Source: Candidatus Altarchaeota archaeon (GTDB lineage Archaea; Altiarchaeota; Altiarchaeia; JAFGQM01). Taken from it: a stretch of 17,922 nucleotides of DNA. Each line of letters starts with the position of its first letter. The first letter of the stretch is position 1. Below the pieces are notes generated by a model that ran no database searches, was not told the DNA's origin, and saw only the letters and a program-made list of their open reading frames with translations. The stretch covers positions 1 through 17,922 of the forward strand of contig JAFGQM010000061.1 in NCBI GenBank assembly GCA_016935655.1, given 5' to 3'. Position numbers and translations under genes: made by a program. This document shows, one piece after another, positions 9,461 to 16,363 of this stretch.

Positions 9461-9664
9461 CTAGCAAGTGTTGCCCCACAACCCTATTATAGCAATGATG
9501 TCGCTCAGGCCTACATTACCGTTTGAGTCTATGTCTCCGACGGGTCCTGCAGTCGCCCAGCGCGCCATGACTTGAATAACATCTCCGAGACCTATGTTAG
9601 TACCTCCATCTAGGTTAGCGTTATTATTGATGCAAGCCGAGTCCTTGCAGAGGTCGTAGGTGCA
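9461..9664 (-). repeat. Dockerin-like module, copy 2
   Basis: The last 67 residues of the 699-residue protein match the last 67 of the 905-residue protein at 51 positions, with no gaps. The module starts at CTYDLCKDS and ends in Cys. The second calcium loop, DIDSNGNVGLSD, keeps positions 1, 3, 5 and 12 of a dockerin F-hand loop; the first, NLDGGTNIGLGD, is a degenerate version. Confidence 0.85.
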
Positions 9665-11560
9665 CAGCTCAGCGTCTTCACAGTCTGAGTTATCATCGCA
9701 CAGGATCTCACTACCTATTGGTGTGCATGGCAACCCTTTGTCGCGCCTCTCTGCTGGCAGGATGTTCAAGTTGTCCAAGTCGTCTACATCCGCCCCGACC
9801 GCAGGCCATGGTAGCTCCTTGCACCAGAAAGGCGGGGGCATTGGGGAATCCCAGAATAGCGATGCAGGCATATTGAAGTCAGCCCAGGCGGATGGAGGCT
9901 TCCTGCCGTCATAGCCTGTTTGACTATAGCAGTAACCATTGCATGTTTTTATTCTCGGACCCGCAAAACCCGCACATAAATCCCCGTTTTGTGGGCAAAC
10001 CCCCGGCGCAGGCACAAGCGTGGTCGTGGGACCTGTATTGTACTGTATGAGAAGACCAGTGTATCTATTTTTCTCAGCCCATAGGTTTGTCATTTTAGTA
10101 TCAAATGGTTTGACGCACCCCTCGGGAAAAGGATAAGCAGTATTGCAACCAGGACTTCCATAAAAAGACGGTCCAACATTGCCAATAAACGAGAACATGT
10201 CCCCGATAAGAGGCCAAGACCTATCGTCGAAGGTTCCAAATCCTCCGGCCTGTGTCCCAGTTATACGGTTTCTGAAAAAGATGTTTCTAGGACCTTGCTT
10301 TCCCCAGATGTTGTCATGCCACATGGTAGTCCCCTCCCCCATACCCGTGCGATCCGAGACCCCTACATTGCCTTCAAACAAATTTTCTTGCGGATACCAA
10401 CCATGCAGCATTATATACGAAGCCTGAGGACGAACATCCCTAGCATAGTTGTAGGCAAAGACATTCCCAATAGGTCCGCCCTCGAATTTCACAACCTGTT
10501 CATTGTTCGCGAATATATTGTTCCAAACAAGACAATCTGTAGCCCCCCCGACAACGTTCATTAAATGGGAATTCGCTACTTGCCCTGCCCCGCCCACCTC
10601 AATCGGAGCATTGTATTCTGTCCATTCGAATTTTGAAGATTCTACAGTTACGTCACGGCTGTTTCTAATCCCGAGAAGCCACATCTGCCCCCAATACAAA
10701 TGGACGTTTTTTACCCAGCAATTAACCGCATAGTTAAATCGGACAAGCCCGTCGTAGCCCCAAGACTGGTCTCTTGGATAAGTAATACTTTCTGGATGCC
10801 TTATTTTAATATCTTCAATTCCAGAATTTACAATCGGATTCATTATCTGGACCCTCTGATTTATAGTAAAACCATCCCTCAATGGCCTGTCAAGTGTAAT
10901 CGTATTCCCGTTCACGCTCGAAACCCTAATTACTTGAGAAATAGTATTAGGGTATGTAGTATCATCGATTTTTGCCGGATCGCGGTCTTCCATAATCAAT
11001 AGATATGTTCCGCTTGCAATGCCCTGTGTCGAACTCAGAGTAAGCTGCTGGCTGTCCCGCGTGTTTCCTGATACAACCGAAATAGTAGCTCCAAGAGAGC
11101 CGTATACTATGACTGGTGGTGGGTCAGTGCTTTTGGGCCCTATTGTGATTGTGCTTTTATCTATGCCTGCCCCCTTCAACACTACATTGCTTTTCAGGGC
11201 CAAAGTCTGAGAACTCAAAAAATCATAGCAGCCTTCGGGCAGATAAACGACCGTTCCCTTTCTTCCGTCGCCGAAGGCTGCAGCAGCTGCATTAATTGCA
11301 TTTTGCATCGCAATATAATCGTTTCCGCCATCGCAGGCCGGATTCGCATTATAAGGCGGCTGTGTGGCATCTATGACCGGCCAATCTGAAGTATCCGGAA
11401 TCCCTCCGTCCACCCCGGCATATGTCCAGTCAGGTATCCTGTCCCTTGGGATTGTCAAATCCCCAAGGTACAATGGCGTTGATGAGAGGCCGGTCGGCAA
11501 AAAAGCAAGAAGAACAAATAAGCACAACATATCCATTCCCTTAAAGATCTTTACATTCAT
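9461..11560 (-). CDS. Secreted pectate-lyase-like beta-helix protein with dockerin-like tail
   Basis: The 699-residue protein has a Sec signal peptide (MNVKIFKGMD, then LCLFVLLAFLPTGLSS). Residues about 55-480 form a right-handed beta-helix of the pectate lyase/GH28 superfamily: the opening DYIAMQNAINAAAAAFGDG, KGTVVYLPEGCYDF and SNVVLKGAGIDKSTITI is typical, followed by coils such as NSGIEDIKIRHP, RDVTVESSKFEW and NCWVKNVHLYW. Catalytic residues cannot be assigned by eye. A Pro- and Cys-containing region follows, then a Cys-rich segment (CDDNSDCEDAELCTYDLC) and a terminal dockerin-like pair of calcium loops (649-699) ending in Cys. It probably cleaves or binds polysaccharide outside the cell. 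It starts 9 nt after the stop of the glycosidase gene, so the two are co-transcribed. Confidence 0.88.
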   Translation of the reverse strand: MNVKIFKGMDMLCLFVLLAFLPTGLSSTPLYLGDLTIPRDRIPDWTYAGVDGGIPDTSDWPVIDATQPPYNANPACDGGNDYIAMQNAINAAAAAFGDGRKGTVVYLPEGCYDFLSSQTLALKSNVVLKGAGIDKSTITIGPKSTDPPPVIVYGSLGATISVVSGNTRDSQQLTLSSTQGIASGTYLLIMEDRDPAKIDDTTYPNTISQVIRVSSVNGNTITLDRPLRDGFTINQRVQIMNPIVNSGIEDIKIRHPESITYPRDQSWGYDGLVRFNYAVNCWVKNVHLYWGQMWLLGIRNSRDVTVESSKFEWTEYNAPIEVGGAGQVANSHLMNVVGGATDCLVWNNIFANNEQVVKFEGGPIGNVFAYNYARDVRPQASYIMLHGWYPQENLFEGNVGVSDRTGMGEGTTMWHDNIWGKQGPRNIFFRNRITGTQAGGFGTFDDRSWPLIGDMFSFIGNVGPSFYGSPGCNTAYPFPEGCVKPFDTKMTNLWAEKNRYTGLLIQYNTGPTTTLVPAPGVCPQNGDLCAGFAGPRIKTCNGYCYSQTGYDGRKPPSAWADFNMPASLFWDSPMPPPFWCKELPWPAVGADVDDLDNLNILPAERRDKGLPCTPIGSEILCDDNSDCEDAELCTYDLCKDSACINNNANLDGGTNIGLGDVIQVMARWATAGPVGDIDSNGNVGLSDIIAIIGLWGNTC

Positions 11561-11569
11561 TTCTCTTGA

Positions 11570-11773
11570 CTAACAGTAGTTACTCCACAATCCGATTATC
11601 GCCAATACATCACTCAGCCCCACGTTGCCGTTTGAGTCTATGTCCGCTATGGAATCGGTGGTCGCCCAGTGGGCTATCACCTGTATGATATCACCAAGGC
11701 CGATGTTTGCTCCATTGTCCAGATTGGCGTTCTTGTTTATACAGGAGGAATCCTTGCATAGGTCGTAGGTGCA
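11570..11773 (-). repeat. Dockerin-like module, copy 1
   Basis: This is the partner of the module at 9461-9664. Loops are NLDNGANIGLGD and DIDSNGNVGLSD, each followed by a hydrophobic helix with a Trp (IIQVIAHWA; VLAIIGLW). Differences between copies are mostly conservative (V/I, I/L, R/H), suggesting selection for the fold rather than very recent copying. Confidence 0.85.
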
Positions 11774-14287
11774 CAGGTTATCATCAGTGCATTGGGAGTT
11801 TGATGAACATGTCGGTCCGCCGCCAAAACCTTCATCAACCAGACCGTCGCAGTCGTTGTCCAAGTCGTCGTCCTTCTCGAACCCGCCGATATAATAGCCA
11901 TCCGCTTTGTTGCAATCGCAGTAGCTGTTCCCGTTCGGATGTATGTTCGGGTTGAAGTCCACACAGTCGACCAGTCCAGGGTGCGCGCATCCCGAGGTCT
12001 CATACTCGTTCGCACCGTATCCGTCGCCGTCCTCGTCCAGGCAGACAGAAGCCCCCTGGGCATAGTTTACCAGCATGTAGGCCGAGAACGGATTGACAGA
12101 AAGTGTGTAGCCATCGCCGAAGTTCGTGATGGCTTGGTGTTGCATATTCACATTCTCAGTGTCCTCATTCGTCAGGGAGGGGTCGCTGCCCGTCACCATG
12201 AAAAGTTCGGCCTTGGCCGAGGGAGCATAGTTCTTTATGTTGAAGACGACATTGGTCGGCGTGGCCCTCAGGTCTCGGTTGATTATGAGATACGAGTATC
12301 TGCCCCCTGACTTGAAGGGGTAAATCTGGATGTAGGGCACATCTAGGGGGTAGTACCAGTTGCTCAGCCCGAAGTTGGAGTTGTGGCAGGAGCTCTGATG
12401 CGACCTCGTGCAGCCGTAGGACTCAACCAGATTCGCCCCCGGGCCGAAGGGATCGAATGTTTCAATATTCCCACTCAAGGTATGCTCTATGAAGTCGCCC
12501 CTCTGGTACTGGCCGTACATCTTGAACGCATAGTAAGCAGGCCGTTTCCTTATGTTCGGGTAGTCGTCCATTATGGGCCATGAGTAGGAGTTCTGCCAGT
12601 AGTAGGGGGACTTGCCGAAACCGCCCTGGTAGACGAAAAGCCCCAGCGGGTCCATCCCCGTCTTTTTCATCATGACGCTCATGTCGAGCCATGAGATGCC
12701 GAAACCGAGGCTGTTCTCCAGCATCCACACATCCTTTAGGCTGCTGCCCAATGGGCCGCTTGGCCCGTATTCGTATATGCCGAGTATCAAATCCTTGCCA
12801 TAGAAGGTTTGGACGACCTCTTTTTGGTATAACGTATATATCCTTGCATATTCAGCTTCACCCAATACCCTGTTGAAAAAGAGGTTCTTGTTTACAGATA
12901 CTTGGCTTTCTGAGTAGGTGGTGGGCGTTCCCTGCTCGTTGTAGACTGTCGGAGTCCTGCCGCTGTAATACTTGGCTGGCATCCAGAACTCTGCCTTGCC
13001 CCCTCCGGTATTCGCCTTTTCCTCCTTTAATGTATTAGAGTTGAGATATGTCGAGTCATACCATACATTGAAGCCTAGGAGCATCCTCACAGGCTCCCAA
13101 TAAGTGGAGGCCATGAACCTTGTTATCTTGTCGGTTGACCAGTCGGCGTAGTTCGCAGGCGGCCACTCGCAGCCGTACATGTCACTGCAGAGGAGCTCGT
13201 TGCCCAATTCAAAGAAAAACCTTGGGAAGGAGTCCTTCCAGGACGAATAGCCATAGCTCTCCCTCTGTGAGCCATATGCGGTCTCATTGTCTCCGAACAT
13301 GTACTCAAGGAGGTTGTCGTACTGTTCTCCGCTGAAGACCGCAGAGATGACGTAGTCGGGGTTCGCGCCTGTCAGCTCGTTGAGTTTAAGGAACTCGCTG
13401 ATGCCCATGACCTCCTTGGGCCTCCCCAATGCTGGACCAACGAGATTATCCCACGTGAGCTTGTTTGCCCCTAACCCACCGTATCTTAGACTTCCTGGCC
13501 TGAGTGCAATAAGATTGTCTATGTAATTCTGGCTTATTTGCCAGTCCGTATCGAGGGAGGCGTCTATCAACCTGCAGTGGTCGACCCAGAGTGTCCCTGC
13601 ATAATACAAGTTAATACGCTTAGTGTTCGCTCCATTGCCCAAGGATGGGTGCGGGTCCTTCAGCCAGCACTCGTTGGGCACTGTGAAGTCCATATAGTGC
13701 TCCTGCCAGTCGCCGGTTACAGACACCTTTTTCCTCGCATTGACATTACAGCTCGGGACGCCGTCCGGGAAATAGACCCTGAATTCTACGTTGTCCTGGG
13801 TCGGCATCCCCGTCTGTTTCATATAACAAGAGAAGCGATAGGTCCTGTTAGGTATGAATGTTCTTCCAGACTCCCACTGGCCAAATCCGCCAGGCAACGC
13901 GCTCTGCTGGGTTGCAACGACCTTCAAGGACTGCTTCCCGTCATAGAATGTTGAAGTGTCATAGGACAATGTCAACCCTGTGACATCGCCGCCCCACTTG
14001 CTACTGTCGATGGTCTCAAACCAACTTGTCCCATCCTCAAAATCTGAGTCCCCCAGGAAGTTCATATATAAATTCATACTAGCCCTGCCTGCCCCCTCAG
14101 GCAGGTGGAAGCCCATCCTCTTGTCCTCTGCCTGGTCTTGGATCGGGTCGTTTGAGAAGGTGGCAGTCACGGTCGCCGCAGAGATTAACGGGCACAAGAC
14201 AATCACACAAGCTACAATAGTCAGGGCTATAACGAGATACATATACTGCCTGAAGTATTCATCAGTCGGTTCTGATGCTATTGCCAT
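11570..14287 (-). CDS. Secreted GH51-like glycosidase with CBM, MopE-like and dockerin-like domains
   Basis: The 905-residue protein begins with a hydrophobic leader (15-38, ending ISAA). Residues about 80-245 resemble a CBM4/9-type jelly roll (GDSDFEDGTSWFE at its start, LWVDHCRL at its end). Residues 260-600 form a clan GH-A barrel: SLRYGGLGANKLTWDN, then FFFELGNEL with Glu364 as acid/base, and GIYEYGPSG with Glu506 as nucleophile. The beta-domain at 650-745 includes MVTGSDPSLTNEDTENV, much like the C-terminal domain of GH51 alpha-L-arabinofuranosidases. A calcium-binding MopE-like segment (749-820; DEDGDGYG, DNDCDGLVDEG), a Cys-rich stretch and a dockerin-like tail (855-905) follow. It likely cleaves arabinose-containing or related glycans outside the cell; the substrate is not certain. 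It leads a two-gene operon and appears leaderless. Confidence 0.88.
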   Translation of the reverse strand: MAIASEPTDEYFRQYMYLVIALTIVACVIVLCPLISAATVTATFSNDPIQDQAEDKRMGFHLPEGAGRASMNLYMNFLGDSDFEDGTSWFETIDSSKWGGDVTGLTLSYDTSTFYDGKQSLKVVATQQSALPGGFGQWESGRTFIPNRTYRFSCYMKQTGMPTQDNVEFRVYFPDGVPSCNVNARKKVSVTGDWQEHYMDFTVPNECWLKDPHPSLGNGANTKRINLYYAGTLWVDHCRLIDASLDTDWQISQNYIDNLIALRPGSLRYGGLGANKLTWDNLVGPALGRPKEVMGISEFLKLNELTGANPDYVISAVFSGEQYDNLLEYMFGDNETAYGSQRESYGYSSWKDSFPRFFFELGNELLCSDMYGCEWPPANYADWSTDKITRFMASTYWEPVRMLLGFNVWYDSTYLNSNTLKEEKANTGGGKAEFWMPAKYYSGRTPTVYNEQGTPTTYSESQVSVNKNLFFNRVLGEAEYARIYTLYQKEVVQTFYGKDLILGIYEYGPSGPLGSSLKDVWMLENSLGFGISWLDMSVMMKKTGMDPLGLFVYQGGFGKSPYYWQNSYSWPIMDDYPNIRKRPAYYAFKMYGQYQRGDFIEHTLSGNIETFDPFGPGANLVESYGCTRSHQSSCHNSNFGLSNWYYPLDVPYIQIYPFKSGGRYSYLIINRDLRATPTNVVFNIKNYAPSAKAELFMVTGSDPSLTNEDTENVNMQHQAITNFGDGYTLSVNPFSAYMLVNYAQGASVCLDEDGDGYGANEYETSGCAHPGLVDCVDFNPNIHPNGNSYCDCNKADGYYIGGFEKDDDLDNDCDGLVDEGFGGGPTCSSNSQCTDDNLCTYDLCKDSSCINKNANLDNGANIGLGDIIQVIAHWATTDSIADIDSNGNVGLSDVLAIIGLWSNYC

Positions 14288-14402: not shown

Positions 14403-14504
14403 CTACATCAGAGGGAAGATGACTATCATGCAGGCCAAAAAAGCCAATACTGCCACAAAATATAAATACTGCTTGAATTCGTCGTTAACGGGTCCTGATT
14501 CCAT
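14403..14504 (-). CDS. 33-residue single-membrane-span mini-protein resembling the glycosidase leader
   Basis: This short frame runs from an ATG at 14504 to a TAG at 14403, with an in-frame stop just upstream. Residues 1-13 are polar (MESGPVNDEFKQY); 14-33 form one hydrophobic segment ending IFPLM. Residues 3-33 align without gaps to residues 5-35 of the following glycosidase with 14 identities, including the shared P, F-QY-Y, AC and PL positions, yet it stops where the glycosidase passes into its secreted part. An AT-rich box lies about 32 nt upstream. It may be a real small membrane protein or the remnant of a duplicated leader. Confidence 0.5.
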   Translation of the reverse strand: MESGPVNDEFKQYLYFVAVLAFLACMIVIFPLM

Positions 14505-14545: not shown

Positions 14546-15250
14546 CTATCTCGGTTTTGGGTATCTGGCACCTCTCACTCGGTTCCTTCTTTCCTTTGCC
14601 CTGTAGAGTGCTTGGTCGGCGTCCCTTATCACATCGTTGCTTGCCCTGGGGTTGTAGCGCGCATAACCGATGCTGGCGGTAACGAAACCCTTGCCCTCTG
14701 GATTTGCTCTGTGTTCGATTCCCGCAGCCTCGATTTGTGACCTAATCCTCTCAGCTACCTTATGGGCACCGTTCATATTTGCACCGGGCAGTATTATGGC
14801 GAACTCCTCCCCGCCTACCCTTGCCAGTTCGTCGTGTTTTCTAAGGTTCGATTTTAGGAGTTTCCCAACCCGTGCAAGCAATTCATCGCCCGCCGGGTGG
14901 CCGTATGCGTCATTGTACCCCTTAAAGTGGTCTAGGTCCAACATTATGACGCTTAGAGGGAACCTGTTTCCATGCTGATCACTTAACCCCCTATAGCGTT
15001 TCATAGCCCTGTTGAAGGCTCCCTTGTTGGGCAGTTGCGTCAACGGATCGATGTATGCCCGTCCCCTCTCAGTCCTGATGCGCATCTTATCCAAAAAATG
15101 CGCGAATGCAATCTGGTTGGATATATCCGGCCTGACGCCTCTCCCCTCATAATACGAGGCGACCCCCCTCACATATCTCTCCCTCACTTGTGGCCTTATC
15201 TGTGACTTGTCCCCTGCCTTGGCCTTTTTGATAATCCTTTTGATGCCCAT
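14546..15250 (-). CDS. GGDEF-domain protein (putative diguanylate cyclase)
   Basis: Diguanylate cyclases join two GTP into cyclic di-GMP. The 234-residue protein has a complete GGDEF domain from about 66: DPLTQLPNKGAFN (68-80), metal and nucleotide site DLDHFKGYNDAYGHPAGDEL (105-124), active-site GGEEF (146-150) and the late segments VTASIGYA and ADQALYRAKERRN. An RxxD inhibitory site (RKHD, 137-140) sits five residues before GGEEF, as in feedback-controlled enzymes. The N-terminal 65 residues are basic, with no membrane segment and no sensor domain I can name. The start follows the mptA stop by one base, and GGAGGTG lies inside the end of mptA, so the two genes are co-transcribed. GGDEF proteins are rare in archaea; I see no EAL, HD-GYP or PilZ protein here. 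Confidence 0.93.
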   Translation of the reverse strand: MGIKRIIKKAKAGDKSQIRPQVRERYVRGVASYYEGRGVRPDISNQIAFAHFLDKMRIRTERGRAYIDPLTQLPNKGAFNRAMKRYRGLSDQHGNRFPLSVIMLDLDHFKGYNDAYGHPAGDELLARVGKLLKSNLRKHDELARVGGEEFAIILPGANMNGAHKVAERIRSQIEAAGIEHRANPEGKGFVTASIGYARYNPRASNDVIRDADQALYRAKERRNRVRGARYPKPR

Positions 15251-15251
15251 C

Positions 15252-16046
15252 TTAGCTTGACACCTCCCCCTCCGCGATCACGTCATGGCGGTGGATGGAC
15301 TCCTGGGCGGTGGTCTTGGCCCTTATCTTACAATCTTTGAACATTCCCCTAGCGTTGTTAAGGATCGCGCGCGTGACGTCCTCGACGAACATGGGGTTTT
15401 CGTACATCCTCTCGACCATGTGGTTCTCGTCCTCTGTCTTGATCAGGGTGTAGACCTCTGTGGAGAAGGATTTCTCCACGCATTCCACCATGTCCTGGAG
15501 AATCACTTGGTTGTTGATGCCAGTCTCTATCTCCAGCTCCCCTATCGCGCGCTGTATGTGCGGCCTCTTCGTGTTTTCTAGGGAGTGGGGGCATACCGTG
15601 TTCCCCAATACCTTGACTTTTAGAACCTTTCTATACCCCCCCTTTTCATAAATGACCTTTATGAGGACGTCATGGGTCTCCATGGTCTCCCTTCTGCTGA
15701 CGGGTGTCCTTTTCTTAATCACCAGCTCGGTGGCCATGGAAACCTCCCCCCTCTTATAAGGGTGCTTTTCCCTTAATTTTTCAAGCACGTTCTTCTCCAG
15801 CTCTTCAAAGGTCATGTGCTTCTCAAAAGCCTCCTCCGAGACTGTCTCAGCTATAGATTCGACAAGGCGGGACATATGCACGCCCTTCTTCTCCCTTGGG
15901 AGGTCTATGGTTATCTCGATTTTGGGGACGAACCGGTATTCCTTGTTCTCCTTGCCTGTCTTGACCAGGATGCGAAGGTTGGTTATCCCTACCCTGTTCA
16001 GGCTTTCAGGGATCTGGGGAGTGTACTCTTGAGTCTCTTTTTTCAT
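15252..16046 (-). CDS. mptA: GTP cyclohydrolase MptA/FolE2 family
   Basis: MptA opens the ring of GTP to give a 7,8-dihydroneopterin 2',3'-cyclic phosphate, the first step towards methanopterin-type or other archaeal pterins; FolE2 relatives give dihydroneopterin triphosphate. The 264-residue protein shows VGITNLRILVKT near the start, CPHS with candidate metal ligand Cys152, RPHIQRAIGELEIET, the segment HMVERMYENPMFVEDVTR (209-226) with conserved Glu, and AQESIHRHDVIAEGE at the end. These match the Fe(II)- or Zn-dependent T-fold family. MptA and FolE2 cannot be separated by eye; the archaeal context favours MptA. It lies 29 nt after the winged-helix gene, with a TTTTTTT run between, and one base before the GGDEF gene. 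Confidence 0.93.
   Translation of the reverse strand: MKKETQEYTPQIPESLNRVGITNLRILVKTGKENKEYRFVPKIEITIDLPREKKGVHMSRLVESIAETVSEEAFEKHMTFEELEKNVLEKLREKHPYKRGEVSMATELVIKKRTPVSRRETMETHDVLIKVIYEKGGYRKVLKVKVLGNTVCPHSLENTKRPHIQRAIGELEIETGINNQVILQDMVECVEKSFSTEVYTLIKTEDENHMVERMYENPMFVEDVTRAILNNARGMFKDCKIRAKTTAQESIHRHDVIAEGEVSS
15261..15267 (-). promoter_or_regulatory. Shine-Dalgarno site of the GGDEF gene inside mptA
   Basis: GGAGGTG on the minus strand lies 10 nt before the GGDEF ATG and within the last codons of mptA (Gly-Glu-Val region). It shows that the GGDEF gene is translated from the mptA transcript and that its start at 15250 is right. Confidence 0.7.
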
Positions 16047-16075: not shown

Positions 16076-16363
16076 TCACCCAGTCCGCGCATAAACCGGT
16101 TGGCCGCCTTTCTCTTCCTCTTTGCTGACCCTGCCCTCGGTTTCCAGCTGCTTTAGAAGAAGGGCGGTCCAAGTGCTGTTCCTCCTCAGCCTCTGGGCCA
16201 TCTCCAGGGGTGTCATGGGTTTGTCCAGGGCATCCAGGACCCGGGCCTTGTCCCTGCCTATCTTGCTCTGGCTCTTTTCCTCGAGGGCGCTCATCCTCTC
16301 CTCCAACTTCTTTATCCTCGCTTGTAGCTCTTCTATACCAAACATTTGCGTTAAGAATGACAT
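16076..16363 (-). CDS. Small coiled-coil/winged-helix DNA-binding protein
   Basis: The 95-residue protein has an N-terminal coiled coil (about 10-34, IEELQARIKKLEERMSALEE) followed by a winged-helix domain: KARVLDALDKPMTPLEMAQRL, recognition helix NSTWTALLLKQLETEGRV, and a wing EEKGGQPVYAR. It is probably a dimeric transcription factor of the MarR/ArsR-like archaeal type; target unknown. It lies upstream of mptA and the GGDEF gene on the same strand, so it may regulate them. Translation could start at Met1 or at Met7 (MFGIEEL). No ribosome site is seen; ATAGTATAG (16382-16390) is a possible TATA box. Confidence 0.85.
   Translation of the reverse strand: MSFLTQMFGIEELQARIKKLEERMSALEEKSQSKIGRDKARVLDALDKPMTPLEMAQRLRRNSTWTALLLKQLETEGRVSKEEEKGGQPVYARTG

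Follow-up and report, generated by a model that had tools for sequence, protein, structure and literature searches.

An intact-looking diguanylate cyclase gene downstream of mptA in an altiarchaeal contig

Cyclic di-GMP is a signal that has been described almost exclusively in bacteria. The closest described systems to the protein presented here are DgcB of Caulobacter, in which a coiled coil is joined to a GGDEF domain, and SiaD of Pseudomonas, a stalk-only cyclase; a further one is the GGDEF protein CAJ37382 of Methanocella arvoryzae. In a 2018 census, a single archaeal GGDEF protein was named, from Methanocella, together with an inactivated one in Micrarchaeum; for signalling proteins of bacterial type encoded in unfinished archaeal genomes, the census raised the question whether they are genuine or stem from contamination (PMC5847659). 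A 2021 paper reported more than 300 BLAST matches to GGDEF across archaea and found no cyclic di-GMP in two model archaeal species (PMC8646023), and a 2022 review described the presence of GGDEF in archaeal contigs as still needing confirmation (PMC10086821). A groundwater study counts diguanylate cyclases in ultra-small microbes, in its accessible sections without a tie to Altiarchaeota (PMC9938205). Our literature search, whose scope most subscription journals lie outside, returned no paper on Altiarchaeota with cyclic di-GMP and none for archaeal-GGDEF phrases. As archaeal GGDEF genes have already been reported from database searches, the gene described here adds to a known kind; its case is distinctive for an unusually secure archaeal context.

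The gene lies on the minus strand at 14546..15250 of the window, which is the whole stretch of 17,922 nucleotides that was analysed. It encodes a protein of 234 aa, recognised from its open reading frame, the Pfam domain PF00990, an AlphaFold model and Foldseek. The protein resembles DgcB, its best fold match, in having a short helical part and a single GGDEF domain. SiaD was found at Foldseek rank 7, and the NCBIfam SiaD model matched over the GGDEF domain only, with 129.6 bits against a cut-off of 290. In contrast to DgcB and SiaD, the window protein lacks the Gly of the GRN motif, is strongly basic at both ends, belongs to an archaeal host and carries a stalk that gave no relative when searched alone. 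Its nearest full-length relative, the metagenome protein P0002, has a longer basic tail. A GGDEF-HD-GYP protein of the altiarchaeal genome G002 shares with it GGEEF, RxxD and an archaeal contig, but is fused to HD-GYP and stands apart in the tree.

We regard this archaeal gene for a diguanylate cyclase, which looks intact and sits in a local operon, as real. We consider it likely that the gene was gained long ago from bacteria and encodes an active cyclase of the ordinary GGDEF family, which would dimerise, be inhibited by its product and be co-transcribed in an operon formed locally in this altiarchaeon.

Domain, residues and fold of the GGDEF protein

The GGDEF domain comprises residues 65-222 (14585..15058, minus strand), as determined by hmmscan and a check of alignment columns; PF00990 matched with E=6e-45 and 153.3 bits, over a cut-off of 23.8, covering positions 1-158 of 161. 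For the comparison of single residues, 7997 candidates sharing most words with the protein were scored, and 70 rows picked from the best 120 relatives listed made up the alignment. The GGEEF signature (residues 146-150; 14801..14815, minus strand) and the residues D105, N113, D114, D122, E148, E149, K219 and R222 all fall in columns that were invariant or nearly so in the 70 rows; D105, N113, D114 and D122 belong to the metal and guanine sites, and K219 and R222 to the phosphate site. The RxxD inhibitory-site motif, here RKHD (residues 137-140; 14831..14842, minus strand), provides R137 and D140 five residues ahead of GGEEF and aligns with RSSD of WspR, with R in 69 rows and D in all 70. The claim, made earlier from the letters alone, that GGEEF, the metal-site residues and RxxD are kept was therefore borne out.

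One exception was found in the nucleotide-phosphate motif from K219 to N223 (14582..14596, minus strand), which reads AKER-RN where AKxxGRN is usual. The Gly of the GRN motif, kept in 67 of the 70 rows, is deleted between K219 and R222, which are both kept; the rows without it are the window protein itself (P0001), P0002 and P0055. The sequence-only reading had overlooked this loss. The deletion, which adjoins two phosphate-binding residues and is found in P0002 as well, was counted against the reading as a cyclase. From a one-residue loss in a near-invariant loop, shared with P0002, and the lack of PilZ in all 29 altiarchaeal genomes searched, one could suspect a receptor: a GGDEF protein that folds but is catalytically weak, and that binds either cyclic di-GMP, at RxxD, or GTP, at the altered site. 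We consider such a receptor unlikely, since every other catalytic residue that we checked is kept, K219 and R222 included, and since it would require a cyclase elsewhere in the genome.

With respect to the product, Asp122 is the residue that we take to occupy the Hypr selectivity position; it is not Ser or Thr, and it is combined with GGEEF. Hypr GGDEF enzymes, which make cyclic AMP-GMP, do exist and carry Ser or Thr instead of Asp at this position, according to PMC6456294. Under the rule of that paper and on the presumed mapping, specificity for GTP is predicted from Asp122 and GGEEF taken together. Hypr specificity was rejected on this basis, and we regard cyclic AMP-GMP or another purine dinucleotide as a most improbable product.

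The N-terminal stalk, residues 1-64 (15059..15250, minus strand), is basic, with 17 Lys and Arg against 6 Asp and Glu, and is helical in the model. No sensor domain was found in it: the Pfam scan placed no domain there, and residues 1-65 as the sole query matched only themselves among 5 candidates. The AlphaFold model has a mean pLDDT of 90.9, and its helices 20-36 and 41-65 lead into the GGDEF fold. Searched with this predicted model, Foldseek returned bacterial diguanylate cyclases as the best solved structures, namely DgcB (6ttr; chain 6ttr_B with E=2e-16 and probability 1.00) and WspR (3bre), and also SiaD, DosC and PleD. For an active cyclase we propose that two copies of this small cytoplasmic protein would pair via their helical stalks, that each GGDEF domain would bind GTP and metal, and that the dimer would join two GTP into cyclic di-GMP. 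Binding of cyclic di-GMP at RxxD would then turn the enzyme off.

The operon with mptA and its surroundings

The gene before the GGDEF gene, mptA (15252..16046, minus strand), encodes a GTP cyclohydrolase of the MptA/FolE2 type with 264 aa, which matched PF02649 (GCHY-1) with E=3.2e-62 and 210.8 bits over a cut-off of 25. Both NCBIfam models for MptA/GTP cyclohydrolase IV stayed under their cut-offs (TIGR00294 with 190.2 against 220, NF010204 with 301.2 against 468), so that the product may be named either MptA or FolE2-like. Among the 120 mptA relatives listed, 11 came from named organisms, 10 Altiarchaeota and one Methanofastidiosia, at 53-59% identity.

The stop codon TAA of mptA at 15252 is separated by a single base from the ATG of the GGDEF gene at 15250. 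The ribosome-binding site of the GGDEF gene, GGAGGTG (15261..15267, minus strand), lies within the 3' end of mptA and ends 10 nt ahead of this ATG; it was identified as a match to the complement of the 16S tail. At 7 nt it was the longest such match among 16 open reading frames tested (the next were 6 and 5 nt, and 13 of the 16 had 4 nt or fewer). Among 20000 random 25-mers drawn from the window, 388 contained a match of at least 6 nt. The sequence-only reading had placed the start one base after mptA and the ribosome site inside it, and we found both as described.

Just upstream of mptA, a 95-aa protein (16076..16363, minus strand) with a coiled coil and a winged-helix-like part, as judged by eye, gave no Pfam or NCBIfam match and one weak match (25.4 bits) in the 29 altiarchaeal genomes. 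Its gene is probably the first of the mptA-GGDEF unit. The GGDEF protein would be translated from the tail of this winged-helix/mptA unit, so that mptA would set the timing of the protein and not its function.

The codon fit of the GGDEF gene was -0.061, the third lowest of 15 genes, with the other 14 between -0.227 and +0.134. The flanking genes encode a pyruvoyl arginine decarboxylase, a member of the deoxyhypusine-synthase family, an ATP-dependent DNA ligase and the MptA-family protein, all of archaeal type. The order pyrE-argC-mptA is common to the window and to the genome G031 of the altiarchaeal phylum, whose contig ends inside mptA. A chimeric contig or bacterial contamination could be suspected, as several GGDEF proteins matched in genomes of other archaeal phyla look bacterial by eye. 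With the ribosome site inside mptA, a codon use that fits the neighbours and archaeal-type genes on both sides, we consider this explanation highly improbable. The earlier view that the gene belongs to an archaeal operon, an assembly join or fresh cargo being unlikely, was thus upheld by the ribosome site in mptA and by codon use within range.

In the window, an Rfam scan gave 0 matches, and thus no cyclic-di-GMP riboswitch. Directly after the GGDEF gene, a 33-codon open reading frame (14403..14504, minus strand) is similar to the N-terminal signal region of the secreted enzyme encoded at 11570..14287, with a score of 81 that 0 of 1000 shuffles reached (the best of them scored 37); it is perhaps a truncated duplicate of the N-terminus of this secreted enzyme. 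The genes at 9461..11560 and 11570..14287, both on the minus strand, encode two probably secreted proteins of carbohydrate-active type. One of the pair is pectate-lyase-like, the other has a CBM_4_9 domain and a weak arabinofuranosidase C-terminal match, and the two have a C-terminal part in common, about 100 residues long and dockerin-like by eye.

MptA-type cyclohydrolases and GGDEF cyclases both use GTP. This, with the one-base spacing and the ribosome site inside mptA, would agree with a functional pair, in which the use of GTP is controlled jointly or a link to pterin or archaeosine exists. We compared mptA regions of other Altiarchaeota: mptA was matched in 23 of 29 genomes and 20 regions were taken, G009-G011 being left out and the closest mptA relatives, P0122-P0140 (60-82% identical), lying outside these regions. 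A GGDEF homologue, searched among open reading frames of at least 70 aa, was present in 0 of the 20 regions, some of which are cut by contig ends (L131, L133). In a neighbour list of 18 regions, from which the distant homologues L134 and L135 had been dropped, a queE-like gene stood directly upstream of mptA in 11, and in 10 of these 11 a queC-like gene was close by (names by eye). This position of the queE-like gene indicates the preQ0/archaeosine route, and deazaguanine genes thus are the usual partners of mptA in Altiarchaeota. MptA in archaea feeds archaeosine synthesis (PMC5485725). We concluded that a functional pair, which had been raised with the discovery of the gene, is very unlikely, and a conserved mptA-GGDEF unit was rejected on the same counts from the 20 regions and the list of 18. 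The neighbourhood appears to be an operon of local origin rather than a conserved partnership; the GGDEF gene seems to have settled beside mptA in a lineage-specific way, and the coupling is probably incidental.

Two side observations concern mptA itself. Five regions (L120, L121, L122, L123 and L126) have queC-/queE-like genes before mptA and, after it, genes for a DhnA-type aldolase and for a CBS-domain-like protein, by eye. The altiarchaeal MptA-family protein P0179, of 462 aa, has radical-SAM domains on the same chain, which fits the QueE link.

Relatives and origin of the GGDEF gene

P0002, a protein of 267 aa, is 46% identical to the window protein over 98% of the query, and shares with it the stalk motif AHFLDKxRIR besides the missing Gly. 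Trees were drawn from 143 GGDEF proteins in which the domain had been matched; of these, a length filter removed the short matches L083, L084 and L161 to leave 140; as a consequence two weak altiarchaeal GGDEF proteins, L083 and L084, are in no tree. The quick tree held 80 of the 140, namely 60 of the 120 relatives and all 20 loci. The careful tree had 39 rows, 31 of P0001-P0040 and 8 of the 20 loci, after nine long-branched or near-copy rows had been dropped. P0001 and P0002 were grouped with support 98/92 in the careful tree, and with an SH-aLRT of 88 only, unstarred, in the quick tree. Only 5 of the 36 inner branches of the careful tree were well supported, and the gene could not be placed among bacterial groups. 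A GGDEF tree including archaeal sequences, as the sequence-only reading had proposed, thus secured the pair with P0002 and not a position among the bacterial proteins. A joint clade of the window protein with the G002 protein was absent from the tree and was not rejected (p-AU 0.101).

The simplest reading is that the gene was gained long ago from bacteria. A recent transfer was rejected, as codon use is within the range of the neighbours and the nearest relative is only 46% identical. The possibility had been put forward of a recent single transfer with the gene absent from close relatives; the absence was found (26 of 29 genomes lack the gene), the recent transfer was not. A viral source was likewise rejected, since among 23 relatives in IMG/VR none was above 44% identical and none reached into the stalk beyond residue 34. 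For plasmids, a search that extended to 5000 records gave only matches below 60% identity, of which the eight listed were all bacterial, and this source was rejected too.

Cyclic di-GMP proteins in Altiarchaeota and other archaea

PF00990 was found in 3 of the 29 altiarchaeal genomes, for which completeness figures are not given; two matches were weak (49.8 and 33.3 bits) and one, in G002, was strong. In the G002 protein (L081, 1288..2568), a GGDEF domain is fused to HD-GYP, and GGEEF and RxxD are intact by eye. Its gene adjoins DUF373, on a contig where a wyosine gene and one for an archaeal A24 peptidase are also found. GGEEF with HD-GYP among archaeal genes makes diguanylate cyclase chemistry plausible in Altiarchaeota. 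On the window contig and the G002 contig alike, GGDEF genes with intact catalytic residues are linked to archaeal genes to either side.

HD_5 (HD-GYP) was matched in 2 of the 29 genomes, in G002 and, as a stand-alone protein with an intact HHExxDGxGYP motif, in G026. EAL was found in 0 of 29 and PilZ in 0 of 29, while 6 and 5 of 14 control genomes, respectively, were matched. A search for these three domains, suggested earlier, was thus positive for HD-GYP and negative for EAL and PilZ, and no known cyclic-di-GMP receptor is in sight in the 29 genomes. The lack of PilZ and EAL there, the lack of a riboswitch in the window and the absence of the gene from 26 of the 29 genomes were counted against the cyclase reading.

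Other archaeal phyla were surveyed with a two-row profile as the query, not with Pfam. Matches were obtained in 2 of 227, 4 of 115 and 3 of 389 genomes. A further survey gave 0 of 398, an empty answer that by itself carries no weight, although the same query matched in the other phyla. One of the two matches among the 227 genomes (G114, 19 bits) was rejected as chance, as it covers stalk positions only, in an AAA-ATPase-like open reading frame without GGDEF by eye. None of the other matches extends into the stalk; of the 269 profile positions, the first that they cover is 84 or higher. The statement that cyclic di-GMP signalling is rarely reported in archaea is supported by these surveys, by the 3 of 29 genomes and by the literature cited above.

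If the window protein is active, a bacterial second messenger is present in at least one archaeal phylum. Altiarchaeota are known for biofilms. We tentatively suggest, as a possibility that we rate somewhat below even, that Altiarchaeota run a home-grown cyclic-di-GMP system of stalk-type cyclases, GGDEF-HD-GYP and stand-alone HD-GYP enzymes of sister lineages, and receptors of an undescribed kind, the last since PilZ and EAL were not found. Such a system may control surface or secreted-glycan behaviour.

The two weak altiarchaeal GGDEF domains, L083 in G027 and L084 in G029, look degenerate. They are homologues of each other, with 93 identities over 348 aligned positions, and form a second, separate altiarchaeal GGDEF family.
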